NCBI GenBank assembly: GCA_003663565.1
Contig: QMTT01000001.1
Span: 1-10,746 of the forward strand
Length of the DNA stretch: 10,746 bases
Origin: Thermoplasmata archaeon
GTDB taxonomy: Archaea; Thermoplasmatota; B47-G6; B47-G6B; 47-G6
Direction of reading: 5' to 3'
Positions 1-10,746 of the stretch are shown here, piece by piece; position 1 is the stretch's first letter; every line of letters begins with the position of its first letter. Under the pieces are notes generated by a model. It saw nothing but the letters and a program-made list of their open reading frames with translations. It had not been told where the DNA came from and searched no databases. A program made the position numbers and the translations under genes.

Positions 1-60
1 TTGCTCCCAATGGGCCACGGAATCTGATGGAGTGGCTGAGGGGAAGCCCGCGCGTGCTCC
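1..60 (+). mobile_element. Possible 3' end of a tnpB/omega-RNA-like IS605 relic (truncated by window edge)
   Basis: This short GC-rich segment lies between the window edge and the 3' end of the glycosyltransferase gene. In one frame bases 1-27 read LLPMGHGI then stop, which resembles the tail codons before the stop in the better-preserved tnpB relic ending at 7169 (DLLPMVEADVP, stop). Both begin with the bases ttgctccc followed by atgg one base later. Arms 13-18 and 32-37 can pair (GGCCAC with GTGGCT, one G:U on the plus strand). The 8-mer GGAATCTG (19-26) recurs at 10710-10717 in the relic at the far end of the window. That this is an IS200/IS605 right end is inference from these resemblances; the zinc-ribbon part would lie outside the window. 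Confidence 0.38.
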
Positions 61-97
61 TATAGTCTCGAAAATATCTTAAATACTACGCGCGGGC
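46..97. repeat. Perfect 10-bp GC inverted repeat with 32-base spacer
   Basis: GCCCGCGCGT at 46-55 is exactly complementary to ACGCGCGGGC at 88-97, while the spacer between them is AT-rich. It lies 7 bases beyond the stop codon of the glycosyltransferase gene, so on the minus strand it could fold behind that gene's 3' end. On the plus strand it directly follows the IS605-like segment and could be an expanded right-end hairpin. The complementarity is certain; the role is not. Confidence 0.6.
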
Positions 98-104
98 AAC
101 CACG

Positions 105-1268
105 TCAATGGTTTTCCATAACTTCCTTATATACATTGACGTGTTTAATCGCAGTCTTTTCCCATGAAGTAGCAAGGGCATATTCTTTGAGGATATCTAC
201 GTATACCTCGTACTCTTTTCTGTTTTCCATAAAATCAATAATCTTTTTAGCAATTTCCTTTGGATCATCTGGAACTCTTATTACTAGGTCTGGTGCTATC
301 TCATAGAGCTCTACAAGTCTATCTGTTCTAGTACCTATGATAGGCTTCATGCTTCCTAACGCTAGATGAAGTATGCCACTCACTGAAAACTTTCCAGGCC
401 TTGACCTATAAGGCATGACGATCAAATCAACGATTGCCAATAGTTTTTCGAGTTCTTCTTTGCTTAGGAACTTATGAATGAATGTCAAGTATTTCGGAAT
501 CCTACCATCGACTTTAATGAATTCAAAGATCTTTTCACTGTATTTTCCTTGTTCTATTCCGGAAATTATTAATCTAACGTCATATCTTTGGTTTACGATC
601 TCTATAGCTCTTACAAGGACATCAAGTCCTTTATCTATACGCAGGAATCCAGGAGATGTTATTAAAAAATCTTCATCATTAACTCCTGATAAATTTAGCT
701 CTTGAACAACATCATCTCGAGTTATTTTTCCAATGTACTCATTTATCTTTGTCCCATGGGGAATCCTATAGAGTTTTCTAGGATCCTCTATTTGAACTAA
801 TAGTTCGAATTCTTGCAAAGAACTATGTACGACCACGGCATCTACAGCTTTTAGTAATTCAATTTGATGCTTCACACGCTCTTGATATTCATAGCTTTTG
901 TGGTACACCGTGTGAAGCGTTACCAGTACTGAGTCAGCATACTTTTTGAGATTCTCTATTAGCTTTATGAACTTCGCAGATGAAGGAAATATTCCGTATT
1001 CGTGTTGTATATGTACCACGTTAAATGGTCCATTCTCCTTTATGAGCTTTATTAAATGGTCATATTTTGAAACCCCTCTCTGAAACGATGGTATGATCAC
1101 TTCTCCAAAGCGTCCTATATATTGATCCGTGTTTTTGAAATCCTTATCTGAGAAAACATATATTTCAGAGCCTCCACAAACGTTTCTGAGGCTTTCTATT
1201 AAATATGACGTGTACTCGGCTATACCACATGGTGTAGGTGGATATGTCGTTATATATGCTACTTTCAT
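105..1268 (-). CDS. GT4-family glycosyltransferase (GT-B fold)
   Basis: This 387-aa protein is expected to move a sugar from a nucleotide-sugar donor to an acceptor in the cytoplasm; neither substrate can be read from the sequence. The N-terminus (KVAYITTYPPTPCGIAEYT, residues 2-20) is the first strand and acceptor-side loop of a glycogen-synthase-like GT4 subgroup. HIQHEYGIF near residue 87 fits the N-domain. The C-domain has a donor-binding start (SPGFLRIDKGLDVL, about residues 205-218), followed by an SGILHLALGSMKPIIGT segment. The usual EX7E acidic pair of GT4 enzymes is not evident there, with Ser/Gly at the expected place, as in some relatives carrying the PPxxCGIAxY start. The ATG has a strong GGGGGTG ribosome site (1276-1282) seven bases upstream. 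It follows the GH130 gene on the same strand, suggesting related sugar metabolism. Family is confident; specificity is unknown. Confidence 0.88.
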   Translation of the reverse strand: MKVAYITTYPPTPCGIAEYTSYLIESLRNVCGGSEIYVFSDKDFKNTDQYIGRFGEVIIPSFQRGVSKYDHLIKLIKENGPFNVVHIQHEYGIFPSSAKFIKLIENLKKYADSVLVTLHTVYHKSYEYQERVKHQIELLKAVDAVVVHSSLQEFELLVQIEDPRKLYRIPHGTKINEYIGKITRDDVVQELNLSGVNDEDFLITSPGFLRIDKGLDVLVRAIEIVNQRYDVRLIISGIEQGKYSEKIFEFIKVDGRIPKYLTFIHKFLSKEELEKLLAIVDLIVMPYRSRPGKFSVSGILHLALGSMKPIIGTRTDRLVELYEIAPDLVIRVPDDPKEIAKKIIDFMENRKEYEVYVDILKEYALATSWEKTAIKHVNVYKEVMENH

Positions 1269-1371
1269 AATAGAACACCCCCACTAAACGATAAGTGCAT
1301 GTATTACCATGATCTCAACGAGAAACACTGAAATCAACAAGTATGTGATGTTAATGAATATCTGCGACTTC

Positions 1372-1391
1372 TTAGAAACAATGATTTCTAA
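1372..1391. repeat. 7-bp inverted repeat upstream of the glycosyltransferase gene
   Basis: TTAGAAA (1372-1378) and TTTCTAA (1385-1391) are exact complements around a 6-base spacer. They lie in the 228-base gap (1269-1496) between the GH130 gene and the glycosyltransferase gene. A TATA-like ATTTACC on the minus strand lies beside it at about 1391-1397. It could be a regulator site or a weak transcript end; AT-rich palindromes this short also occur by chance. Nothing else recognisable was found in that gap. Confidence 0.3.
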
Positions 1392-1496
1392 ATGGTAAAT
1401 AATGGAAAATTACTATAACATAATTCAAAAATAACCTTGACAAATATGAATCTTATCGAAATTGTTCAAATAATACTTATTCACTTTTTCTTAAGA

Positions 1497-2582
1497 TCAC
1501 TCTATTGTCGTCTTATCGAGCTCAGACATAAGAACATCCATAGGAATTTCAGCAAATCCTATGGCATAATCAGCAGCACCATATGCAATAATTAGCTTGT
1601 CATCTACCACAGCGTTCCCACATGGGAACACCACGTACGGCCTATCGCCAAATATCTCATAGAGTGCTTTGGGCTCCATTATATAATGTGGTGTCACGGC
1701 TATAGGCCTGGGACCCGTATCCTTATCGTACTTTATCATGGCAGCGAATACCCTATAACCTTCTATCTCATTGTCAATGCCATGTATAAGTATTAGGTAT
1801 GTATCTCGTTCGATCTCTATTGGCGGGGCCGCCCACCCTAATTTTATCTCGAAACCCTGTGGCTCTAGCATTATCTTAGTATCTTTTACTTCTATTTCTA
1901 CAGGATTCTTTTCGAAGCTCATATCAAGGAAATCATCTCTAGATATAATGCTCACAGTCAGGTAATAGCGTTCATCCATCATGTGAGGTCTATGGAATAA
2001 AAGAACGTCGCCAGTAGATGATCTAATTATGAACGCATCTTTATCACTTATAAGGATCTTCCTAAACCTTTTATCAAGCACTAACACAGCTTTTTTCTCC
2101 CACTTATTCAGTCGTTTGTCCACAGCCTCTGCGACTATTGGTAAAGTTCTCTCATATCTGATTGAAGGATTGAAGTAATTTATCCCTCGTCCCACGTATA
2201 CCATAAAGACTCTTCCATCTATTTCAACAACCCTTGGATCCTCAGTACCCCAAAGATCATACCTGATCGACGGATAAACTACTATCTCCGCTGAGTAGTC
2301 TGAGAAATTCATTACGTCCTCAGAGAGATCCTCTACAGGAATCTCCATCTTTAAGATAGCACTAACGTACATAAAGTAACCAAGAATTGCTCTAGGGAAC
2401 AAATAGACTATATCTCCTTTTATGACCATTGCAGGGTTAAACGCCGTAATAGGACTATCAACAAGATAGTTCCTTATGTGAATCCTATCTGGGGAGATAA
2501 CACCTATTCTCTTTGCTATATCCTTTGTCTCAAATTTTCTCTTCTGAGAGAGCTCTATAGCATTCTCAGCATATTGAAACAT
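1497..2582 (-). CDS. GH130-family glycoside phosphorylase/hydrolase
   Basis: This 361-aa protein matches the five-bladed beta-propeller GH130 family, whose characterised members cleave beta-mannosides, mostly by phosphorolysis giving mannose 1-phosphate. Visible hallmarks in order are FNPAMV (48-53), WGTEDPRV (111-118, holding the family's catalytic Asp at D115), KDAFI (181-185), FHRP (196-199), the GWAAPPIEI phosphate/substrate loop (249-257) and FPCGNAVVDD...AYGAAD (319-338). No signal peptide is seen, so it is probably cytoplasmic. The ATG has AGGTGA (2589-2594) six bases upstream. The GT4 gene lies downstream on the same strand, so the pair may build and recycle a mannose-containing glycan or solute; that is inference. 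Mannan phosphorylase, mannosyl-glucose phosphorylase and mannosidase cannot be told apart by eye. Confidence 0.85.
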   Translation of the reverse strand: MFQYAENAIELSQKRKFETKDIAKRIGVISPDRIHIRNYLVDSPITAFNPAMVIKGDIVYLFPRAILGYFMYVSAILKMEIPVEDLSEDVMNFSDYSAEIVVYPSIRYDLWGTEDPRVVEIDGRVFMVYVGRGINYFNPSIRYERTLPIVAEAVDKRLNKWEKKAVLVLDKRFRKILISDKDAFIIRSSTGDVLLFHRPHMMDERYYLTVSIISRDDFLDMSFEKNPVEIEVKDTKIMLEPQGFEIKLGWAAPPIEIERDTYLILIHGIDNEIEGYRVFAAMIKYDKDTGPRPIAVTPHYIMEPKALYEIFGDRPYVVFPCGNAVVDDKLIIAYGAADYAIGFAEIPMDVLMSELDKTTIE

Positions 2583-2588
2583 CAGGCT

Positions 2589-2639
2589 TCACCTAGATGC
2601 AGTGCTATATTCTTACTTTAGTGAGTTCACTTATTTAAC
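2589..2639 (-). promoter_or_regulatory. Promoter and ribosome site of the GH130 gene
   Basis: On the minus strand GTTAAATAAG (2630-2639) is a good archaeal TATA box. A transcript starting about 25 bases downstream would carry a short leader with AGGTGA at 2589-2594 before the ATG. This supports an independent transcript for the GH130 gene, and perhaps GH130 plus the glycosyltransferase. Confidence 0.5.
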
Positions 2640-2681
2640 TGTTTACCTGTTTTTCTCTTACTTACTGTAATAGTAAAGTAA

Positions 2682-2846
2682 TCTTTACATTCCGTTTGTC
2701 CCTACCGCTTCTTTTTGTTTAAAACTGTAGCGAATTGTGTCTACAGTAGGGACTTCCACCTCACCCACAAGGACGGGAGCAGTGCTCCAAATGGCGTATG
2801 GCACAGAGGGAAGCTCACGATGACAATGAATCCCGGCTATGGTTAG
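2682..2846 (+). pseudogene. tnpB zinc-ribbon/C-terminal relic (IS200/IS605)
   Basis: An open frame between stops at 2679 and 2844 encodes a decayed TnpB C-terminus. HSVCPYR (2688-2708) and NCVYSRD (2733-2753) resemble the two CxxC knuckles of the TnpB zinc ribbon followed by the conserved RD, but the second Cys of each pair is lost. Each loss is one base from a Cys codon (CGC for TGC at 2706, AGT for TGT at 2745). The tail continues with LTHKDGSSAPNG and ends LTMTMNPGYG before TAG. No start codon, RuvC domain or upstream tnpB body is present, since the GH130 promoter begins about 40 bases before it. It is therefore a non-coding fragment with 3' sequence intact. The match is by eye; a profile search would settle it. 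Confidence 0.55.
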
Positions 2847-2885
2847 CAAAAGCTAATTATAGCTGGGAAGAGGAGCAACGCTTAG
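2741..2885 (+). ncRNA. Candidate structured RNA (omega-RNA-like) in tnpB relic
   Basis: This segment overlaps the 3' part of the tnpB relic and reaches almost to the stop of the PEP carboxykinase gene. It contains GGAGC/GCTCC (2776-2780 with 2784-2788, three-base loop) and a long stem, 2831-2847 with 2852-2868, of 17 bp around an AAAA loop. Three of those pairs are G:U when read as plus-strand RNA and would be C/A mismatches in a minus-strand RNA, so any selected RNA is plus strand. Omega RNAs of IS605 elements arise from the tnpB 3' end, which fits. A TATA-like TTTAAAA at 2718-2724 could start it near 2750. Transcription and exact ends are unknown. Confidence 0.45.
2831..2868 (+). repeat. 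17-bp hairpin with AAAA loop
   Basis: The left arm 2831-2847 pairs continuously with the right arm 2852-2868. There are 14 Watson-Crick pairs and three G:U pairs (2835 with 2864, 2841 with 2858, 2842 with 2857). It lies 23 bases from the PEP carboxykinase stop codon. Read on the minus strand the same positions are C/A mismatches, so it is a poor terminator for that gene. Confidence 0.8.
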
Positions 2886-2890
2886 GTAGA

Positions 2891-4777
2891 TCACTCATAA
2901 TCAAAACTTTCTAAGGTAAATGGTGAAATATAGTCTCCAAGATGCTCTCTTACCTTAATAAGTCTCTTTCTTTCGGCTTCTAGCACTTCGAAGACTTCTT
3001 TAGGTATCCTTCCTCCAACATCTCTGTAGATCTTTATTATCCTATCTACTTTAGAAAGATTCTCTGGTATTCTTATCGTGAACTGTTTTTCATAGGCCTC
3101 TTTCGAGTATTCCTTATTGAGAACTCGCTTGAAGAGCTCCCTGAGATCCTCATATCTTGGGATGTATCCAATAGGAGTCCACACTGCGCCTACATCATCG
3201 TGCACTCTAAGTTCCATCCACTTAAGCCATACTGCTTTATCAACTTTGTCATTGATGTAGTTCCCGTGTTCATCCCTAAGGAAGTAGTTTACTGCGAATA
3301 TCTTTGGCTTTTTCTTAAGTTTCTTACCGAATTCAAGATAGTTCCTCAAGTAATCTCCAATGTGAACTGAAAGGAAGTCTCTTATGGCCATTGGATTAAA
3401 CTCCCTAACACCCTCTTTGCCGAGAGTAGCGGCTGTGGTCTCAGACTCCAAAGCAGCGCCCTTAGTGATAACACCATGTTCCCAATTGAAGGCCTCACAA
3501 ACAGGGGGCCATGTGTCAGGATCCCTTCCACCAAATATTATGCCTCCTAGAGGAACTCCTTCGGGAGCGTTTAGGGCTTCTTTGTCAAGGTTCTTGAAGG
3601 CCTCTAGCCTTACAGTGAATCTTGCGTTCTTGTGAGCAGGAGGCACCTCTTTTCCATCAGGTCCTATCTTACCTTTCCACCACTTCCCTGAGAAATTCTC
3701 GCCTTCTTCTGGCAATTCTATACCCATCCCTATCCAATACGGTTTCCCATTATGTACTAATACATTTGAGAATATGATCTCATTTGGCGAATGAAGCACT
3801 TCCCATATTATAGGATCATCTACGGGATTTATTCCAGTTATTATCCCAAAAACTCCTTGTTCAACGTTTACAGCCCTCGCCTCTCCGTTTATTTCCTTTA
3901 TAAATGCTAGGTCATCTCCAACGATGTTCTCGTGAGGCATAGTACATGTGGAAGTCTTCCCACACATTGATGGGAATGCTCCTGTGAAGTACGTTTTTCT
4001 ACCGTTTGGACCATTTACTCTCATTAAGAACATATGTTCTGATAACCATCCTTCCATCACGGCTCTTCTTATTGTCAGCCTGAATGCCAGCTTTTTTAAT
4101 CCCATGCTATTACCGCCATACTGCGTGTTCACTGAATACACGGTTTCAGACTCTAGATCTATGTATATCCTTCTCTTATCAATGTTTTTACTAGTCTTCC
4201 TCTCATCAAGCTCTCCAGCAGAATGAACGAACTTCAGGAATCTTGCATTTCTTCCCAAGCGTACGAACTCCTCATAGCCCTTCCTATAGAGTATGAATTC
4301 AGAGTGAGCTACATAGGCTGAGTCCGTCATCTGCACAGCAGGTATGGTAAACGGAGACTTATTAGGTCCTAAAACGAAGAAACAGATAAAGACTTCTTTG
4401 CCACGCATTATTCCATCCATTATCTCATATATCTCCTTAAGTCCTTCTTCTCTTGGCATCGTATTTACGTAGGGTATCTCAACACCTGAAGGCACTAAAA
4501 TCTTTGTGTTCTTTCTATCTCTTGCCTGATCGAAATATCCATCAAAGTGCACAGTATGACCAGGGGTTCTCAATGGGCTTTCTTCTCCGTATTCTATGGC
4601 CTTTTTTCTTACGTACTCCTCGTCTTCAGGGCTATCACTACACACGTATATTTTCGATGGTTTACAAAGGTCTATATACTTAGCAATAAATGCGTGAAGC
4701 TCTGGGTTATCTATCCTTGCGAGCTTTTCAAAGTGATCCCTCTTAAGTATTTTTTTCAGATACTCAAGTGCATCCAT
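2891..4777 (-). CDS. pckG: Phosphoenolpyruvate carboxykinase (GTP)
   Basis: This enzyme interconverts oxaloacetate plus GTP with PEP, CO2 and GDP in the cytosol, linking C4 acids to gluconeogenesis, or running anaplerotically. Its 628 aa match the GTP family. It has the PEP/substrate loop YGGNSMGLKK (220-229) with the metal-site Lys, GWLSEHM (243-249) with the metal-site His, and the kinase loop AFPSMCGKTS (267-276) with the hallmark reactive Cys272. The metal-binding GDDLAF (287-292), the nucleotide-side FGGRDPDTWPP (415-425) and NYFLRDEHGNY (about 497-507) follow. The start is ATG with GAGGTG (4785-4790) seven bases upstream. It is last in a minus-strand gene run, 49 bases after the eIF2B-like gene. 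A TATA-like TTATACTTAA (4804-4813, minus) could give it its own transcript. No defects are seen. Confidence 0.97.
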   Translation of the reverse strand: MDALEYLKKILKRDHFEKLARIDNPELHAFIAKYIDLCKPSKIYVCSDSPEDEEYVRKKAIEYGEESPLRTPGHTVHFDGYFDQARDRKNTKILVPSGVEIPYVNTMPREEGLKEIYEIMDGIMRGKEVFICFFVLGPNKSPFTIPAVQMTDSAYVAHSEFILYRKGYEEFVRLGRNARFLKFVHSAGELDERKTSKNIDKRRIYIDLESETVYSVNTQYGGNSMGLKKLAFRLTIRRAVMEGWLSEHMFLMRVNGPNGRKTYFTGAFPSMCGKTSTCTMPHENIVGDDLAFIKEINGEARAVNVEQGVFGIITGINPVDDPIIWEVLHSPNEIIFSNVLVHNGKPYWIGMGIELPEEGENFSGKWWKGKIGPDGKEVPPAHKNARFTVRLEAFKNLDKEALNAPEGVPLGGIIFGGRDPDTWPPVCEAFNWEHGVITKGAALESETTAATLGKEGVREFNPMAIRDFLSVHIGDYLRNYLEFGKKLKKKPKIFAVNYFLRDEHGNYINDKVDKAVWLKWMELRVHDDVGAVWTPIGYIPRYEDLRELFKRVLNKEYSKEAYEKQFTIRIPENLSKVDRIIKIYRDVGGRIPKEVFEVLEAERKRLIKVREHLGDYISPFTLESFDYE

Positions 4778-4784
4778 AATTCTA

Positions 4785-4813
4785 CACCTCTCTATGTAGA
4801 GGATTAAGTATAA
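4785..4813 (-). promoter_or_regulatory. Possible internal promoter and ribosome site of pckG
   Basis: In the 49-base gap before pckG the minus strand carries a TATA-like TTATACTTAA (4804-4813) and the ribosome site GAGGTG (4785-4790). CCTCT/AGAGG arms (4787-4791 and 4798-4802) flank and overlap the ribosome site and could form a small 5-bp hairpin. A start about 25 bases below the TATA element would leave almost no leader, so the two signals suit alternative transcripts: a readthrough operon message using the ribosome site, or a near-leaderless one. Confidence 0.35.
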
Positions 4814-4826
4814 CTTAACAGGTCCC

Positions 4827-5666
4827 TTAAAGTGGTTTCACAATATCCCTTTCAGTCAAGATAGCAGTGACCAATCTACTTGGTGTCACATCAAAAAGAA
4901 TGTTTCTCACGGCTTTCCCTTGAACAGTCAGTTCCCTTTCCATGAGCTCCAATTCCTCTCCATGGTTTATTATGGGATGAAACTTGAACCTCTCTGCAAG
5001 AACGTAAAAAGGAACACTGTAATAATTTGCAGACAGTGCTAATAGGAACGTTCCTGCCTTATTTATTACATCCAACCTCCTCGTTATACAATCTGCACCG
5101 ACAACCACGACATCAGCCCTTTTGATCATGAGACCCATTTGTGCATCTGTTATTATCTCATACTTAATTCCAAGGTCTTCAAGTTCATTTGCGAGATGTA
5201 TTCCTTCAAAGTCAGGTCTTGACTCCGTTAATATAACTTCAAAGCTTATGTCCATAGATGAAAGCTTCTTAAACAGCTCCAGAACAGCAGAAGAATAAGA
5301 GTGTGTCATGAACACTACTTCTGAGGGGATCTCAATATTTTTAATAAATATTTCTGCTGTTTTTGATTTCGCACTTTGTATCTCAGTGAGATAATCCTTT
5401 AGTCTTTTGAGAATAACGTCTTTGTCATCTATTTCCCTCACAAGCTTCATAACGTGGTCTGATACGTTATATATTGGCGCAACAGTAGGAAAAAGTCTCA
5501 CAATTTCATTAGACAGTCTAACAATCTCCTTATTACTTATGTTCTCTTCTATAAGTGCAATATAAAACTCAACACATTTCTCAGCAAGATAACTTGCACC
5601 CTTTATCTTCTCAGAGATCATACTGTTCAGAATCTCCTCAGCTCTTTGAGGCAACTTTAATAACAT
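4827..5666 (-). CDS. eIF2B alpha/beta/delta-like family protein (aIF2B / sugar-phosphate isomerase superfamily)
   Basis: This 279-aa protein has a helical N-terminal half (1-110) and a Rossmann-like C-terminal half. That half carries the superfamily signatures TESRPDFEG (147-155), GADCIT...DVINKAGT (190-206) and FDVTPSRLVTAILTE (258-272). The superfamily includes eIF2B regulatory subunits, archaeal aIF2B, ribose-1,5-bisphosphate isomerase and methylthioribose-1-phosphate isomerase. The Cys that serves the isomerases aligns by eye with S123 in THSYSS (121-126), a form more like eIF2B-alpha, so isomerase activity is doubtful. It may bind a nucleotide or sugar phosphate in a regulatory role. The ATG has GGAGGT (5672-5677) just upstream, in the last codons of the preceding membrane-protein gene, implying coupled translation. 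Superfamily is sure; exact function is open. Confidence 0.85.
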   Translation of the reverse strand: MLLKLPQRAEEILNSMISEKIKGASYLAEKCVEFYIALIEENISNKEIVRLSNEIVRLFPTVAPIYNVSDHVMKLVREIDDKDVILKRLKDYLTEIQSAKSKTAEIFIKNIEIPSEVVFMTHSYSSAVLELFKKLSSMDISFEVILTESRPDFEGIHLANELEDLGIKYEIITDAQMGLMIKRADVVVVGADCITRRLDVINKAGTFLLALSANYYSVPFYVLAERFKFHPIINHGEELELMERELTVQGKAVRNILFDVTPSRLVTAILTERDIVKPL

Positions 5667-5668
5667 TT

Positions 5669-6121
5669 CTAGACCTCCTGACGCACTATCTTGCTTTCTA
5701 CGAATGCAATTATGGACGTAAGAAGTGGTACAACAAACCCGAATGCTACTATAGGATATAGGACTAGTCTAATATCTGCCTCGTAGTATATGCTTGTCCC
5801 TTGGTACTCTATATATCCACTCACGATCCCTCCCTTTAACACTGAAAGAAATACATACAGTATAATCACTCCCTGAAACATCAAAACAAGAATACGCATA
5901 GGGGTTCTTCCTGAAACCCTATCAACAAAATATATGAAGAAGAATGCCACAAAACCTCCATAAAAAACCGTATGTGGCATGGGTATGTTCTCTACAAACA
6001 ATGAGAGAACCATGTAGGGGATGTAAACGAATCCCAAATACGCTATCGTAGAATCCACAAGAGCCAATACAAGAGCTTTCACAACAGTTCTCAGAGGAGA
6101 TCTCACTTCCTTATCTTGCAT
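5669..6121 (-). CDS. Four-helix integral membrane protein, unknown function
   Basis: I do not recognise this family. From the ATG at 6121 it is 150 aa, with hydrophobic segments at about 12-45 (long, perhaps two helices joined at a Pro), 50-67, 76-96 and 117-141. Basic residues lie between segments 2 and 3 (DRVSGRTPMR). A longer form of 163 aa from TTG at 6160 is open, but it overlaps the preceding gene by 20 bases and has no ribosome site. The ATG form has GGGAG about 12 bases upstream and starts just after the preceding stop, so I prefer it. Its 3' end contains the ribosome site of the eIF2B-like gene. It probably forms a membrane complex with the two small upstream membrane proteins, judged only from gene order. 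Confidence 0.68.
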   Translation of the reverse strand: MQDKEVRSPLRTVVKALVLALVDSTIAYLGFVYIPYMVLSLFVENIPMPHTVFYGGFVAFFFIYFVDRVSGRTPMRILVLMFQGVIILYVFLSVLKGGIVSGYIEYQGTSIYYEADIRLVLYPIVAFGFVVPLLTSIIAFVESKIVRQEV

Positions 6122-6140
6122 GTCTTCTTCACTCTCCCAG

Positions 6141-6584
6141 TCAAAGTATTGGCACTTCAAATGTCATTTTAAATGGCAAGAACCCAGAGATATTCATTCT
6201 TATGGAGACCCTCGCTGTAAAGGACTTTGGAAAACCCTTTAAGTATAGTGTAAGGTTCCTTTCAACACTCTCTTGTGGAGATAAACTCCCAATGTACACC
6301 TTGATGATCTTGCTATATGTCCTGTCGTCAATTGTCGTATAGTTACACTGTATTTCGACAAATATATCCGTTATTTTTACCCTCCCGTTGTTAAACCCAC
6401 ATACTGTGAAATTTATCACAATACTGTCATTTTCAAGCCTTGATATTACTATGTTCCTAAGAGATATGTCAAATTTTCCACCCTTGGCATCCTCAATGAA
6501 AGTATATAGTGGATATCCTATTACTACAAGGGATATTATCATAATAGTAGCAGAAGTAACAGACAAGAAGGTAGTATACCTCAC
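6141..6584 (-). CDS. Membrane-anchored exported protein with beta-rich domain, unknown function
   Basis: This 147-aa protein has one N-terminal hydrophobic segment (about 8-28), an uncleaved anchor or signal sequence. It is followed by a beta-rich, presumably extracytoplasmic domain. The domain carries five N-glycosylation sequons (N52, N58, N81, N110, N131) and two Cys (62 and 80) that could form a disulfide. The alternating polar/hydrophobic pattern (SIVINFTVCGFNNGRVKI) looks like an immunoglobulin-like or LEA-like sandwich of archaeal surface proteins, but I cannot name the family. The start is GTG with GGTGAT close upstream. It sits between two polytopic membrane-protein genes, overlapping neither if the downstream gene starts at 6121. 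A surface or pseudoperiplasmic partner of those proteins is inferred. Confidence 0.72.
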   Translation of the reverse strand: MRYTTFLSVTSATIMIISLVVIGYPLYTFIEDAKGGKFDISLRNIVISRLENDSIVINFTVCGFNNGRVKITDIFVEIQCNYTTIDDRTYSKIIKVYIGSLSPQESVERNLTLYLKGFPKSFTARVSIRMNISGFLPFKMTFEVPIL

Positions 6585-6604
6585 AGGATCACCTACAGTG
6601 CTTA

Positions 6605-6889
6605 TTAACTTATTTTCATGAGAAGTTGAATTCCCCTATAAAGCAGTATAGAGCCTATCCAGATCATGATAGATAGAAATGCAAGTCTTAATCCATAGTA
6701 AAGTATCAGTGGGGTTACATCGGAGACAAGGTCTTCTATGCTGTTGAGTTTTGGAAGAGTCTCTTTTGTTATTGTGTTATACTCTTTATATGCTAGAATC
6801 CCAGAAAATATCAGCACTGCAAGTCCTACAACTACTAAAAGTATTGTGAGACCAATTCTGAAAGTAGCCTCCTTATCAGATTCTGACAA
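6605..6889 (-). CDS. Small two-TM membrane protein, unknown function
   Basis: This 94-aa protein has two predicted membrane helices (about 11-33 and 61-85) joined by a charged, mostly polar loop (KEYNTITKETLPKLNSIEDL). The short acidic N-terminus (MSESDKEATF) suggests a hairpin topology with both ends on the same side. The start codon is TTG, chosen because a strong GGAGGTG (6896-6902) lies six bases upstream and no in-frame ATG gives a sensible protein. It is the first gene of the minus-strand run leading through two more membrane proteins and the eIF2B-like gene to pckG. The family is not recognised. Confidence 0.68.
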   Translation of the reverse strand: MSESDKEATFRIGLTILLVVVGLAVLIFSGILAYKEYNTITKETLPKLNSIEDLVSDVTPLILYYGLRLAFLSIMIWIGSILLYRGIQLLMKIS

Positions 6890-6895
6890 AAGTTA

Positions 6896-6931
6896 CACCT
6901 CCTAAAGCCTTGCGGAACTGTTAAATATTTG
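6896..6931 (-). promoter_or_regulatory. Promoter and ribosome site at the head of the membrane-protein/pckG gene run
   Basis: On the minus strand AAATATTTAAC (6921-6931) is a TATA box placed so that transcription would start about 6900, just before GGAGGTG (6896-6902) and the TTG start. The TATA box lies inside the tnpB relic, which is read on the other strand (codons for LLNIW). The element is nearly symmetric, so it could also serve plus-strand transcription of the relic. Confidence 0.45.
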
Positions 6932-7169
6932 GATAGGTAAATATGGAACGACTTTATACGATGAAAGAAACCATGCCTGTCCCAAATGTGGCAGAGGATA
7001 AAGCACCGAAAGGGACAGGCATAAGCCCATACCCAAGGATGTGGGATTTTCCTTCCCCAATGAAGATTTGGAAGGAATTAATCCTCCAATCCTAAGGGGG
7101 AGCAAGGTTACCCTGAATGGGGGCGAGACCAATGACTTGCTCCCGATGGTTGAGGCTGATGTGCCCTAA
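6906..7169 (+). pseudogene. tnpB C-terminal relic with zinc-knuckle codons (IS200/IS605)
   Basis: In one frame 6906-6998 reads SLAELLNIWIGKYG, TTLYDERN, then HACPKCGRG and an in-frame TAA (6999-7001). This resembles the TnpB stretch in which a helix with a YG is followed by a strand ending in an acidic V/LDER motif, then TS, then CPxCG. The two residues before the His/Cys appear deleted. After the stop the same frame stays open to 7169, ending NDLLPMVEADVP. There is no start codon and no RuvC body; bases upstream are the leader and start of the minus-strand membrane-protein gene. It is a dead fragment as protein. Base composition is richer in G+C than the flanking genes. The identification is by eye from motif order. 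Confidence 0.6.
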
Positions 7170-7210
7170 GGCGGATGCTCGCTCATCAATGCGGACATCC
7201 GCTGAACCCC
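6970..7210 (+). ncRNA. Candidate multi-hairpin RNA (omega-RNA-like) in tnpB relic
   Basis: Three strong stems and two weaker ones lie in about 240 bases. They are a perfect 11-bp pair 6973-6983 with 7012-7022; a 6-bp stem CCCATA/TGTGGG with one U:G near 7026-7045; CCTTCC/GGAAGG near 7052-7076; a perfect 9-bp pair 7098-7106 with 7136-7144; and an 8-bp stem 7170-7177 with 7196-7203, one G:U on the plus strand. Such density is unlike the surrounding intergenic DNA and fits the tnpB 3' end, where omega RNA is encoded. The 3' boundary is uncertain; the run of T after CCCC at 7207-7213 could end a transcript. The conserved cores of SRP RNA and RNase P RNA were looked for and not found. Confidence 0.45.
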
Positions 7211-7256
7211 TTTGTGTTAATCTCCTAAGTTTCTAATTTTTCTTTTACGTTAAACA

Positions 7257-8354
7257 TCACTTAACTTTTACGGGTACTTTATAGTACGTCTCAAGAATCA
7301 TCCTGTCTTCGGAGCGAACACGTCCTTTTGACACTTCGATGACAATACACTTCCTTGAGAATTCAAGGATTTCCATCTTAACTTTTCTATGTTCAAAATA
7401 TTCGTAAATACTTACCTCGTCTCTCAGCGTGTAGTTTCCACAAGGTCCATGACTGCACAGATTACAACCCATTCCATGAGAGATTATATTCGCTGAACAA
7501 GCAAATGGAAAGGTTTTTAGACCAACGTCTAGCGCAATACTTTCTATTTTTCTTTTTATATCGTTAGTAAATACTGAAACTTGATCGGACTTGTCTTTGA
7601 ACTCCTTTCTTAACATCCTCTTGAGAAGCTCATCTTTTAAATTAAATCTCTCTGAGAGTATTCTAAAAACACGTGGAGTGACCCTTAACGATCCCAACAC
7701 TATACCCTGCACGCCAGCATCTTTCAGACCTTGCAACAGAGTTTCTATGTCTTCTTCAGTTATTCTCGGAACTATGGGTCTTATGAATCCTACTGTCTTT
7801 ATTCCGACATTACTGAGTTCTTTTAAGCACATAACCCTGTCTTTAACTGCTACTTTAGGTTCAAGTACTCCAGAATATGATGAAAAACTCATGAGAAAGC
7901 TGATATCCTTGTCAAAGTTAAGCAATCTATAAGGATCCGATGGACATAACTTTGCTGATATTTGAATGGGATTTCTTAACCATGTTGAGACATGTTCTAT
8001 GAACTCGTATGTTTTCTCCTCTAATTGCGGTAAAAATGGTTCTGTTATCGATCCCACAGCTATGAGAGTCTCCTTAGGAAGAAAATATTTATTAATAAGT
8101 AAGGCATAAACAAGCTCCATTCCAGAGAGCTTTGATTGTGTAACCGTGGTTATCCCCATATCGTAAACATAACAGTAAACGCATCCCAGCGAACATCCAT
8201 ATCCTGGATGTATTGTCATCCCGCAAAAGATCGGTCTCCTCCTACTATGTTCATCCTTCTTGACTTTTTTCATGTCCACGTTCTTCCTAAGATCTTTAAG
8301 CAGAGACTCTTTAAGGGATAACAGATCAACAAGTTTGTAACCCTGCATACCCAT
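7257..8354 (-). CDS. Radical SAM protein (SplB/COG1533-like)
   Basis: This 365-aa enzyme from ATG 8354 has the radical SAM cluster motif CSLGCVYC (CX3CX2C, Cys 54, 58 and 61), which binds a 4Fe-4S cluster and S-adenosylmethionine. It is followed by VYALL and an AVGSITEPFLPQLEE segment typical of the SplB-like branch of the TIM barrel. A second Cys set near the C-terminus, CX10CX2CX4C (286, 297, 300, 305), could hold an auxiliary Fe-S cluster. The substrate is not deducible; spore photoproduct lyase itself is not expected in archaea. An upstream in-frame TTG (8357) and a later ATG (8348) are alternatives. A TATA box at about 8383-8391 puts the transcript start close to the ATG, so translation is probably leaderless. 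It is transcribed away from cheW. Confidence 0.88.
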   Translation of the reverse strand: MGMQGYKLVDLLSLKESLLKDLRKNVDMKKVKKDEHSRRRPIFCGMTIHPGYGCSLGCVYCYVYDMGITTVTQSKLSGMELVYALLINKYFLPKETLIAVGSITEPFLPQLEEKTYEFIEHVSTWLRNPIQISAKLCPSDPYRLLNFDKDISFLMSFSSYSGVLEPKVAVKDRVMCLKELSNVGIKTVGFIRPIVPRITEEDIETLLQGLKDAGVQGIVLGSLRVTPRVFRILSERFNLKDELLKRMLRKEFKDKSDQVSVFTNDIKRKIESIALDVGLKTFPFACSANIISHGMGCNLCSHGPCGNYTLRDEVSIYEYFEHRKVKMEILEFSRKCIVIEVSKGRVRSEDRMILETYYKVPVKVK

Positions 8355-8382
8355 CAATCTAGTGTTATGTTATTATGTTCTT

Positions 8383-8391
8383 GTATAATTT
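8383..8391 (-). promoter_or_regulatory. TATA box of the radical SAM gene
   Basis: On the minus strand AAATTATAC lies 29 to 37 bases before the ATG at 8354. This predicts a near-leaderless message, which agrees with the lack of a ribosome site before the start. Confidence 0.45.
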
Positions 8392-8414
8392 ATTATGCAC
8401 AACGCTTATTACCA

Positions 8415-8434
8415 ATTCTAGGGCACACTAGAAT
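8415..8434. promoter_or_regulatory. Candidate operator: 7-bp inverted repeat between divergent promoters
   Basis: ATTCTAG (8415-8421) and CTAGAAT (8428-8434) are exact complements around the 6-base spacer GGCACA. The repeat sits between the TATA boxes of the radical SAM gene (8383-8391) and the cheW-like gene (8466-8473). A further copy of half of it in reverse, CTAGTGT at 8359-8365, matches ACACTAG at 8425-8431. The spacing suits a dimeric helix-turn-helix regulator; no regulator gene is in the window. Confidence 0.4.
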
Positions 8435-8465
8435 ATGCACGAAGGATGCTAAACTTAAGACCCAT

Positions 8466-8495
8466 CTATAAATAAGCAATTATACACATGGTGAT
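8466..8495 (+). promoter_or_regulatory. Promoter and ribosome site of the cheW-like gene
   Basis: CTATAAAT (8466-8473) is an archaeal TATA box and GGTGAT (8490-8495) is a ribosome site six bases before the ATG at 8502. The TATA box predicts a start near 8495, so either the leader is only a few bases or the real start is slightly earlier and includes the ribosome site. Confidence 0.55.
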
Positions 8496-8501
8496 ACCGC
8501 C

Positions 8502-8906
8502 ATGAAGATCCTTACGTTCTCCATTGGAAACAGCATATATGGGATTGACATAAAGTATGTAAGACAAGCTCTTTTCAGAATAGAGATTGAGGAATATTAC
8601 TCTGGAAAAGAATACATTCTCGGGGTTGTAGACATAAAGGGAACCTTATATCCAGTGGTGGACTTTGGGAAGCTTCTCAAAGGAAAAGAAAGCACTGGAG
8701 AATATTTCATAGTCCTTACTACATCCAACGGAGGACTCGTTGGAAAGGTTGATGCCATATTAGGAATTACAGATATTAGCGAAAGAATACTTGATTCTCA
8801 GATGAATGTCTCAGAAACACTGAATCCCTATATTATAGGTGCTGCTAAGGTTAATAACAAAGTAATATTCATCGTAGATGTAAACAAGATCCTTACTATT
8901 ATATGA
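8502..8906 (+). CDS. cheW: Single-domain CheW-like protein
   Basis: This 134-aa protein is one complete CheW domain. It has an N-terminal FSIGNSIYGIDIKYVRQAL (6-24), the central GVVDIKGTLYPVVDFGKLL (41-59) matching the G-x-V-x-x-R/KG-x-x-x-P-V-x-D core, a GLVGKVDAILGI segment (about 78-89) and C-terminal IGAAKVNNKVIFIVDVNKIL. In bacteria and archaea CheW couples chemoreceptors to the CheA kinase on the cytoplasmic side of the membrane. The usual Arg of the NIRG motif is Lys here. No chemoreceptor, cheA, cheY or archaellum gene lies in the window, so it is an orphan as far as can be seen and may serve another signalling array. It has its own promoter and diverges from the radical SAM gene. Confidence 0.88.
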   Translation: MKILTFSIGNSIYGIDIKYVRQALFRIEIEEYYSGKEYILGVVDIKGTLYPVVDFGKLLKGKESTGEYFIVLTTSNGGLVGKVDAILGITDISERILDSQMNVSETLNPYIIGAAKVNNKVIFIVDVNKILTII

Positions 8907-9101
8907 CAATAGCTCATGGCTTTAAGATTATTTCATCAAAAGAACATAAAGGACACGTTAATACCATCGAAAACCCTTAATACTCTTGAGATTATCGCTG
9001 CTGCAACAGAGCACTCTCCAGACACGAACAATTACCGCATTCTAGAGTCTCACAGCTTTCCTTTATGTACATTTTATTGTAAAATTATGTATAGGATAAC
9101 A

Positions 9102-9110
9102 TTATATATT
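9102..9110 (+). promoter_or_regulatory. TATA box of guaAB-guaAA
   Basis: TTATATATT is a strong archaeal TATA box centred 27 bases before the guaAB ATG at 9133, with no ribosome site between. The message is therefore probably leaderless. The rest of the 226-base gap after cheW (8907-9101) shows no recognisable gene or RNA. Confidence 0.65.
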
Positions 9111-9132
9111 ACACTATTTTTGATAAATATGT

Positions 9133-10056
9133 ATGAACGTTCGCGTGATAGTCGATGAGATAATTAAATTTATAAAAGAAGAGGTTGGATCTAATCTTGC
9201 TATATCAGCATTATCTGGAGGAGTTGATAGTACTACTGCCACAGTACTCGCGAGGAAGGCACTGGGGGAGAAAGTAATCCCAGTATTCGTAGATACAGGA
9301 CTTCTTCCTTATGGAGAAATAGGACACATAAAAAAGCTTTCGAGAGATCTAAACATACCAGTAAAAATAATCAATGCATCGAACGAGTTTTTCAGAGCTT
9401 TAAAAGGAGTTACAGACCCGGAATTAAAGAGGAAAATTATTGGAGAGACTTTTATAAGAGTATTTGAGAGAATAGCTGAAGATCATGGTGCAAAGTGCCT
9501 CATACAGGGAACAATAGCTCCTGATTGGATAGAAAGTAAAGGAGGAATAAAAAGCCATCATAATGTTGGAGGCCTTCCAAAGGAAATTAAGCTTAAGATC
9601 GTAGAGCCACTTAAAAACTTCTATAAGGATGAAGTACGTGAGATAGCACGCTATATTGGAATCCCAGAATATGTAATCAATAAAAAGCCTATTCCAGGAC
9701 CTGCTCTTGCTGTAAGAATCCTTGGAGAGGTTACCCCTGAAAAAATTGAAATAGTAAGAAAAGCTACGAAAATAGTCGAAGAGGAAATGATGAAAACTGG
9801 ATTAGATTTCTGGCAAGCTTTTGCAGTTTTATTACCAATAAGAACGGTAGGGGTTCGAGGAGATATAAGAGCATATGAGTGGACTATAGCTGTAAGAATA
9901 GTAAATTCTACAGATGGAATGACAGCAAACTTTTCAAAGGTCCCATGGGAGGTCCTTGAACGTATTTCATCTAGGATAACATCTGAGGTTCCACACATTG
10001 GAAGGGTACTTTATGACATAACAAACAAGCCTCCTGCAACTATAGAGTTTGAGTAG
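9133..10056 (+). CDS. guaAB: GMP synthetase, ATP pyrophosphatase subunit B
   Basis: This subunit activates XMP with ATP to an adenylyl intermediate and aminates it to GMP, using ammonia from the partner amidotransferase. The 307 aa contain the PP-loop SGGVDS (28-33), GTIAPDWIES (126-135), KSHHNVGGLP (140-149), EPLKNFYKDEVREIA (158-172) and the PGPALAVRILGEV segment (188-200). The C-terminal XMP-binding dimerisation domain contains GVRGDIRAYEWTIAVR, STDGMTANFSKVPW and ends ITNKPPATIEFE, the signature end of GuaA. In bacteria this unit is fused behind a glutaminase domain; in many archaea it is separate, as here. The start is ATG with a TATA box 27 bases upstream. guaAA follows after 13 bases, so the two are co-transcribed. 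Confidence 0.97.
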   Translation: MNVRVIVDEIIKFIKEEVGSNLAISALSGGVDSTTATVLARKALGEKVIPVFVDTGLLPYGEIGHIKKLSRDLNIPVKIINASNEFFRALKGVTDPELKRKIIGETFIRVFERIAEDHGAKCLIQGTIAPDWIESKGGIKSHHNVGGLPKEIKLKIVEPLKNFYKDEVREIARYIGIPEYVINKKPIPGPALAVRILGEVTPEKIEIVRKATKIVEEEMMKTGLDFWQAFAVLLPIRTVGVRGDIRAYEWTIAVRIVNSTDGMTANFSKVPWEVLERISSRITSEVPHIGRVLYDITNKPPATIEFE

Positions 10057-10062
10057 GGTGAT
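10057..10062 (+). promoter_or_regulatory. Ribosome site fixing the guaAA start
   Basis: GGTGAT lies directly after the guaAB stop codon and seven bases before the ATG at 10070. It supports that ATG over the in-frame TTG at 10049 (overlapping guaAB) and the ATG at 10061, which would itself overlap the ribosome site. Confidence 0.65.
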
Positions 10063-10069
10063 GAAGTTC

Positions 10070-10648
10070 ATGGAGATAATTATAGTAGACAATGGAGGAC
10101 AATACGTTCACCGTATTTGGAGAAGTCTTAGAGAAATTGGCGTAAAGGGTAAGATCGTAAGTAACACAATTCCCCCTGAAAAAGCAATAACATCAGATGT
10201 CATTGGAATCATACTCAGTGGAGGTCCTGATATAAAAAAATCAGGGTATTCAGAAGATTACTTAGAGTACTGCATTGAACATAATCTTCCTATACTTGGC
10301 ATTTGCCTTGGGCATCAAATAATAGGTAGATATTTTGGTGCTGAAGTGGGAAAAGGGTCCAAGGGCGAATATGGATCGACTTTGATAAAAATATTAGAGA
10401 AGAAGTATCTTTTTGAGGGTTTTCCAGACAAAATCTCAGCTTGGGCCTCACATATGGACGAAGTAAAGGATGTTCCAAAAGAGTTCCTCCTAACAGCGAC
10501 ATCAGATGTGTGTCTTGTCGAAGGAATGCGCCACAAGAGGCTACCCATATTCGGCATTCAGTTTCATCCAGAGGTGTCTCATACGCCGGATGGAAAGAAG
10601 ATTTTGAGGAACTTCTACGAAATATGCCGTTTTAAGCTGTTTTTGTGA
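10070..10648 (+). CDS. guaAA: GMP synthetase, glutamine amidotransferase subunit A
   Basis: This class I glutaminase subunit hydrolyses glutamine and passes ammonia to GuaAB for GMP synthesis. From ATG 10070 it has 192 aa, normal for the free archaeal subunit. It starts MEIIIVDNGGQYVHRIWRSL, the usual GuaA amidotransferase opening. The oxyanion-loop LSGGPDI (49-55), nucleophile elbow GICLGHQ (77-83, Cys79) and His166/Glu168 in FGIQFHPEVSHT (161-172) complete the catalytic triad. SHMDEV (127-132) is the family's substrate-coupled loop. It is in tandem with guaAB with its own ribosome site, giving the whole enzyme in two adjacent genes in the order synthetase, then amidotransferase. An extended start at TTG 10049 would add seven residues but spoils the usual N-terminus. 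Confidence 0.96.
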   Translation: MEIIIVDNGGQYVHRIWRSLREIGVKGKIVSNTIPPEKAITSDVIGIILSGGPDIKKSGYSEDYLEYCIEHNLPILGICLGHQIIGRYFGAEVGKGSKGEYGSTLIKILEKKYLFEGFPDKISAWASHMDEVKDVPKEFLLTATSDVCLVEGMRHKRLPIFGIQFHPEVSHTPDGKKILRNFYEICRFKLFL

Positions 10649-10650
10649 TA

Positions 10651-10746
10651 GTTTAATATATAGAAGGGATTGTGTAATTGTTGTGGCTAGTATGGAGGCC
10701 CCCACTGCAGGAATCTGCTAATACCCCAAAGGGGCAATTAATGAAA
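10651..10746 (+). mobile_element. Possible tnpB tail / omega-RNA-like relic running off the window
   Basis: After guaAA a TATA-like TTTAATATAT (10652-10661) precedes a GC-rich segment. In one frame it reads VASMEAPTAGIC then TAA (10719-10721), similar in place and composition to the tail codons before the stops in the other relics. No zinc-ribbon coding is visible. Small hairpins follow: GCAG/CTGC (10707-10710 with 10715-10718, loop GAAT) and CCCC/GGGG (10724-10727 with 10731-10734, loop AAA). GGAATCTG at 10710-10717 is shared with the segment at the window start. The sequence continues past the edge, so the structure and any downstream end cannot be judged. Confidence 0.4.

Follow-up and report, generated by a model that had tools for sequence, protein, structure and literature searches.

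The palindrome-associated transposable element (PATE)-like IS605 element of Halanaerobium hydrogeniformans has no tnpA and combines 28 nt of its left end with the terminal 58 nt of tnpB and an entire right end (PMC7290912). In the archaeon Staphylothermus marinus, 14 copies of a miniature inverted-repeat transposable element (MITE) of ~260 nt are linked to IS607-family genes (PMC2678158), and in the IS607 element ISXfa1, the right-end RNA of TnpB runs past the transposon boundary into the guide (PMC10711439). Here, we analyzed a 10,746-nt stretch of DNA from a Thermoplasmata archaeon (contig QMTT01000001.1, positions 1 to 10,746; the window), which contains four repeat segments, named S1 to S4. 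We consider it highly probable that these segments represent families of short, nonautonomous, PATE/MITE-like elements of the IS607 type that keep an omega-RNA-like end. The plan of both ends plus a tnpB tail is already known from IS605 PATE-like elements and archaeal IS607 MITEs, and the window elements are a fresh example of it.

In the parts of the published descriptions that we compared, the Halanaerobium element has the same plan of both ends and a tnpB tail, but it is a bacterial IS605 element found in one copy, whereas the elements described here are of the IS607 type, keep the first tnpA codons, and occur in several families and copies (PMC7290912). The S. marinus MITEs resemble them in their archaeal host, their IS607 link, and their occurrence as several short copies; however, what they are reported to resemble is sequence lying upstream of the transposase frames, and the portion of the description compared mentions neither a tnpB tail nor a guide-RNA end (PMC2678158). 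As far as its description was compared, ISXfa1 shares IS607 ends and a right-end RNA, but there TnpB is present and was tested, whereas here no protein remains and the elements are known from sequence alone (PMC10711439). A literature search by title and start of the abstract, with most subscription papers outside its scope, found no omega-RNA-bearing IS607 mini-elements. Stand-alone omega-RNAs and TnpB-aided retention have been the subjects of earlier work.

The nearest relative used for comparison, G001, is a fragmentary Guaymas Thermoplasmata metagenome-assembled genome whose matches lie on short contigs. Repeat copies in G001 are named C plus a number, and its contigs L plus a number. The best match to the phosphoenolpyruvate carboxykinase (PEPCK) of the window was the G001 contig QMTU01000064.1 (L001; Thermoplasmata archaeon isolate B1_G16; 89%), which is collinear with window positions 3411 to 8894. 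Segment S3 has the following parts.

Positions 6907 to 7210, plus strand: S3, a family B mini-element of ~304 bp from left end GCCTTGCG to right end GCTGAACCCC, ends in common with C20 (profile E 2.2e-33).
Positions 6907 to 6942, plus strand: S3 left end with a TTAAATA stretch that may be promoter-like (alignment with C20; motif scan).
Positions 6943 to 6969, plus strand: remnant of an IS607 tnpA start, translated as MERLYTMKE and resembling MEKLYRIKEA of C15.
Positions 6970 to 7169, plus strand: remnant of the tnpB tail and zinc-ribbon codons, interrupted by a stop at 6999, from alignment with C20 and C87 and without a direct profile match.
Positions 7170 to 7203, plus strand: S3 right-end hairpin (fold), its stem kept through changes over five copies.
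Positions 7211 to 7230, plus strand: would-be guide, placed from the right end at an assumed ~20 nt, in the spacer before the end of the radical S-adenosylmethionine (SAM) gene at 7257.

S3 thus runs from a left end through about nine tnpA codons and a junction into tnpB zinc-ribbon codons to a right end. Its closest kin, C20, repeats this left end, the start ME-LYT-KE, the jump into the zinc-ribbon codons, and the right end, and lies at a different locus, beside an EamA-type gene. The orthologous S3 site in L001 is empty, with 57 bases between the two genes compared with 367 in the window; this was the single empty site read, and the diverged spacer does not fix the insertion dinucleotide. 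The junction shared by S3 and C20 at different loci, together with the empty L001 site, shows that the S3-type element was mobile or was exchanged after its deletion. Because the same deletion product recurs elsewhere in G001 and the orthologous site is empty, S3 is neither the result of decay in place nor a conserved host gene. A second relative of S3, C87, carries a zinc ribbon (PF07282, 1e-12).

Family D, to which S1 belongs, provided a second case in which both ends are kept and the coding body is deleted at several loci. Six G001 copies (C88, C129, C3, C134, C111, and C142) are units of 244 to 273 bp from GAC(T/C)ATTTCG to GGCAA(C/T)CAC; all six keep both ends, have unrelated flanks, and lack the zinc ribbon, and in four the 3' part begins at the same place (query 324 to 326). 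The 500-bp C76 retains a tnpA start and a full zinc ribbon (PF07282, E 2.1e-15), and in C120 the contig ends within the unit. Observed directly were deletion products that keep both ends, the presence of copies at several loci, a single empty site, and conserved hairpins.

In these elements, internal deletions brought the left end, with the first tnpA codons, next to the zinc ribbon or 3' part of tnpB and the right end. We propose that IS607 TnpA made elsewhere in the cell would move the elements in trans, and a left-over tnpA promoter may transcribe the short unit. The structured right end would serve as the omega-RNA with flanking host DNA as its guide, and TnpB supplied in trans could cut the empty allele, favoring retention of the element.

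All four segments are real repeats, beyond chance. Profiles made solely from G001 copies and run on both window strands gave their top matches on the plus strand at S1 (3 to 103, E 7.2e-9), S2 (2765 to 2881, E 3.2e-35), S3 (6906 to 7180), and S4 (10656 to 10735, E 2.3e-5); the sole further window match at E < 0.01 was the S2 hairpin on the opposite strand (2868 to 2831, 1.4e-6). In DNA comparisons with G001, S2 was 89%, 90%, and 79% identical to C121, C57, and C67, respectively, S3 was 83% identical to C20, S4 was 86% identical to C80 over 43 bases, and S1 was 86% identical to C111 over 35 bases (E 0.003). The genes of the window were 68 to 77% identical to those of G001, so that the 83 to 90% identity of S2 and S3 to their best copies fits recent movement or constraint. 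The remaining segments comprise the following features.

Positions 1 to 103, plus strand: S1, right part of a family D element cut by the contig start, with right end ...GGGCAACCAC at 103.
Positions 46 to 97, plus strand: S1 right-end hairpin, omega-RNA-like (RNA fold; compensatory changes over 9 copies).
Positions 104 to 123, plus strand: S1 would-be guide, placed from the right end at an assumed ~20 nt, antisense over the glycosyltransferase gene end (stop at 105).
Positions 2765 to 2881, plus strand: S2, family A tnpB tail and right end ...GAGGAGCAACGC.
Positions 2831 to 2868, plus strand: S2 17-bp hairpin (RNA fold).
Positions 2882 to 2901, plus strand: S2 would-be guide, placed from the right end at an assumed ~20 nt, antisense over the PEPCK gene end (frame ends at 2891).
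Positions 10637 to 10746, plus strand: S4, family C left end (10637 to 10696, with a TATATA stretch) fused to zinc-ribbon codons and cut by the contig end (C80, C81).

The right end of S1 recurs in eight G001 copies; C76, C3, and C142 differ there by one base. S1 starts at base 1 and S4 reaches the last base of the contig; eight G001 copies (C81, C87, C89, C134, C36, C120, C121, and C57) likewise lie at contig ends. Because repeats break assemblies, S1 and S4 are probably cut off rather than short. The final 12 bases of the GMP synthase subunit A frame lie within S4. S4 aligns with the zinc-ribbon codons of C81, and C80 repeats both the left end and the zinc-ribbon codons of S4. In family A, C67 directly adjoins a PF07282 match, and C57 starts with MEKLYRLGEAAQ. 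G001 has nine PF07282 matches at E ≤ 0.001. The left-end profiles of families D and E gave nothing better than E 1.4 in a search of the window for the S2 left end. To the left of S2, positions 2682 to 2764 contain GTCCCTAC and GTAGGGAC ~45 bases apart; no match to this stretch was found, and it may hide the S2 left end. A fifth family, E, follows the same plan in G001: C92 (L152) has units at 710 to 929 and 2030 to 2666, the first of which shares its left end with C84 (L158), and the two C92 units have a common 33-base right end (94%).

The original prediction, made from the window sequence alone, had described the four segments as 3' ends of IS200/IS605 tnpB genes with a foldable right end. 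For S1 to S3, this holds through homology to G001 copies rather than through a profile, while S4 turned out to be a left end with internal zinc-ribbon codons. The proposed zinc-ribbon frames had no match to TnpB profiles at 2682 to 2846 and 6909 to 6998 (PF07282, NCBIfam) or at 7002 to 7166 (Pfam). In S2, the ribbon placed at 2682 to 2764 is unsupported, as homology begins at 2765 only; in S3, the supposed ribbon stretch KYGTTLYDERNH spans the tnpA start (ATG at 6943), translated in a different frame, and the frame as read from 6906 to 7169 contains a stop. The absence of tnpA from all four was claimed too broadly, since S3 keeps its start, and the absence of a RuvC body cannot be stated for S1 and S4, which the contig ends cut. 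Nor is only the 3' part kept: a left end is present in S3 and in S4, and six G001 relatives of S1 have both ends. The single orientation was correct, but with a chance of 1 in 8 it says little. All four segments match G001 repeats, but no intact tnpA or tnpB was found there. The two end segments, singled out as the weaker cases, are truncated by the contig ends.

We then examined the hairpins. Relative to shuffled sequences, the folds of S1 (z -2.60), S2 (z -5.08 for 2765 to 2881; 0/200 shuffles as good), and the 3' part of S3 (z -3.13) were more stable. The family D right-end stem, defined from the S1 fold and the alignment, was paired in 91.1% of 90 cells, compared with 21 to 44% when slid, and changes on both sides were seen in 9 cells, compared with an average of 3.7 in the shuffles (0/500 as high). 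An 8-pair stem in family B was kept in 39/40 cells over five copies (1/2000 shuffles as high). Structure was conserved up to the element boundary with a variable flank beyond it, as is characteristic of an omega-RNA at the level of structure and boundary. An Rfam scan of the window gave 0 matches at E ≤ 1. The conservation of the hairpins is consistent with their being an omega-RNA-like portion of a mobile element. According to the part of the source consulted, recombination of IS607 elements proceeds via a double-stranded circle and takes place at matching dinucleotides (PMC10711439); since this route has no obvious need of a hairpin, an RNA role appears favored. At the left ends, TTTAAAT occurs in 5/7 family D copies, TATATA in S4 and C80, and the TTAAATA stretch in S3 and not in C20; such AT-rich stretches are as would be expected of a left-over tnpA promoter.

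The position of the right ends was tested in 16 copies and then in 7 more, with random intergenic points as the null. Of the first 16 copies, 14 had a right end that faced the end of a gene on the opposite strand (null 0.389), and in 10 it lay ≤20 nt from an opposing gene end (null 0.048). Over all 23 copies, 14 faced such an end (p 0.027) and 10 were within 20 nt of an opposing stop codon (p 4.2e-8), in a test that was conceived after seeing the data, took open reading frames of ≥90 aa as genes, and included same-family copies that are not fully independent. Three copies were scored as misses: C106 and C81, whose right ends are spanned by a frame, and C84, whose contig ends before any gene. 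The within-20-nt position was noted among S1 to S3 in the window and in C129, C3, C134, C111, C142, C120, C57, and C20 in G001. A guide at such a right end would read antisense over the gene end. All 10 right-hand G001 genes scanned had a Pfam domain. Among 13 left ends, the frame of the left gene ends inside the element in C76, C88, C84, and S4, and further inside in C3; the left gene abuts the left end in C20 and in C92 unit 1. TnpB elements showed no general facing habit: 20 loci were taken from six other genomes; 17 of the loci had frames of ≥349 aa, and of the 19 with a next gene, 10 opposed it (p 0.16 vs 0.389). On one plain interpretation, a compact genome tolerates insertions when they fall directly after a stop codon. 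A more far-reaching reading, which we regard as unlikely, is that the units live as solo guide-RNA elements consisting of a promoter and an omega-RNA, with TnpA and TnpB borrowed in trans, and persist most readily at sites where the guide is antisense to a conserved gene end. If this were so, the guide would still match empty alleles in diverged relatives, and the insertion would be harmless.

Plain decay, in which several full-length insertions were each eroded where they stood until little but the 3' ends remained, would account for the lack of an intact frame in S1 to S4, for C67 and C76 as stages with more tnpB left, and for the missing S2 left end. However, S3 and C20 have the same deletion junction at different loci, four family D copies have a common junction, and the identity of S2 and S3 to G001 copies exceeds that of the neighboring genes. 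We therefore judge decay, which had been put forward as the null explanation, improbable as an account of the segments as a set, and for S3 it fails on the recurrent deletion product and the empty orthologous site.

The start codons of tnpA were found at the left end of C15, C57, C76, C20, and S3. C15 (L154, 131 to 515) has a 53-aa frame with a MerR-like helix-turn-helix (HTH; HTH_17, 2e-10; NCBIfam IS607 transposase, 7.8e-7), and in C106, the pieces of a frameshifted tnpA match positions 30 to 117 (4.6e-24) and 116 to 169 (5.1e-14) of the IS607 model. Because related G001 copies carry the start of the IS607 serine-recombinase tnpA, the segments are, judged by their sequences, of the IS607 type and not IS200/IS605 as originally named. 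Such a tnpA with a MerR-like HTH is present only as a start in S3 and as relics in G001; a search for PF00239 in 60 genomes including G001 gave a match in 31, and a MerR-like start was seen in 0/11 frames with the catalytic motif (20 loci read). In C15, the tnpA HTH frame overlaps the tnpB zinc-ribbon frame, which marks this copy as an intermediate in the deletion series.

Right-end hairpins are typical of IS605 elements. These hairpins, and the fact that NCBIfam scores IS200 TnpB above IS607 TnpB for C15 and C92, would suit remnants of IS200/IS605 elements with an HUH TnpA and an unrelated tnpA-like start. The HTH start at the left end of five copies and a tnpA relic whose match to the IS607 model extends from the HTH into the recombinase domain (no HUH TnpA search was made) make this very unlikely. 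Host co-option of the units as stand-alone guide-like RNAs acting antisense on the neighboring gene end, which the conserved hairpins and the clustering of right ends behind opposing stops might suggest, is highly improbable, given that the S3 site is empty in G001 and the S3 copy is hence not a conserved host gene, that the G001 copies adjoin different genes, that facing alone is only 14/23 against a null of 0.389, and that an insertion directly after a stop may do no damage.

Several observations weigh against mobile IS607-type mini-elements as the explanation. Within the window, only S3 displays the full plan, as S1 and S4 are cut off and the left end of S2 was not found. Family B was found in just 1/97 genomes, namely, G001; the right end of C80 seems incomplete beside C81; and neither an intact tnpA nor an intact tnpB was found in this fragmentary genome. 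For C15, NCBIfam ranks BldC (1.1e-8) first and IS607 second, and neither C15 nor C106 reaches the whole-protein cutoff in its IS607 score. In family D, the number of doubly changed pairs was not above that of the shuffles (97/500 as high), and the changes in the right-end hairpins may date from full-length ancestors.

If the mini-element reading is correct, apparent leftover tnpB tails can be whole mini-elements, and both ends should be checked before such tails are called relics or co-opted RNAs. The copies also form a natural multicopy set for testing whether an omega-RNA without a nuclease gene helps a mobile element stay, and the same set suits the question of whether a guide placed on a gene end matches more diverse alleles.

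The genes of the window encode, by Pfam, a glycosyltransferase, a GH130 protein, PEPCK, an IF-2B-like protein, three small proteins, a radical SAM protein, a CheW protein, and two GMP synthase subunits; the three small proteins had no Pfam match, and the radical SAM protein was slightly below its Pfam cutoff. A tRNA scan of the window found nothing. The CheW-domain gene (8502 to 8906; Pfam E 5.6e-21) stands alone, since the window genes scanned include no further gene for chemotaxis, and has a counterpart at positions 31 to 423 of L001.

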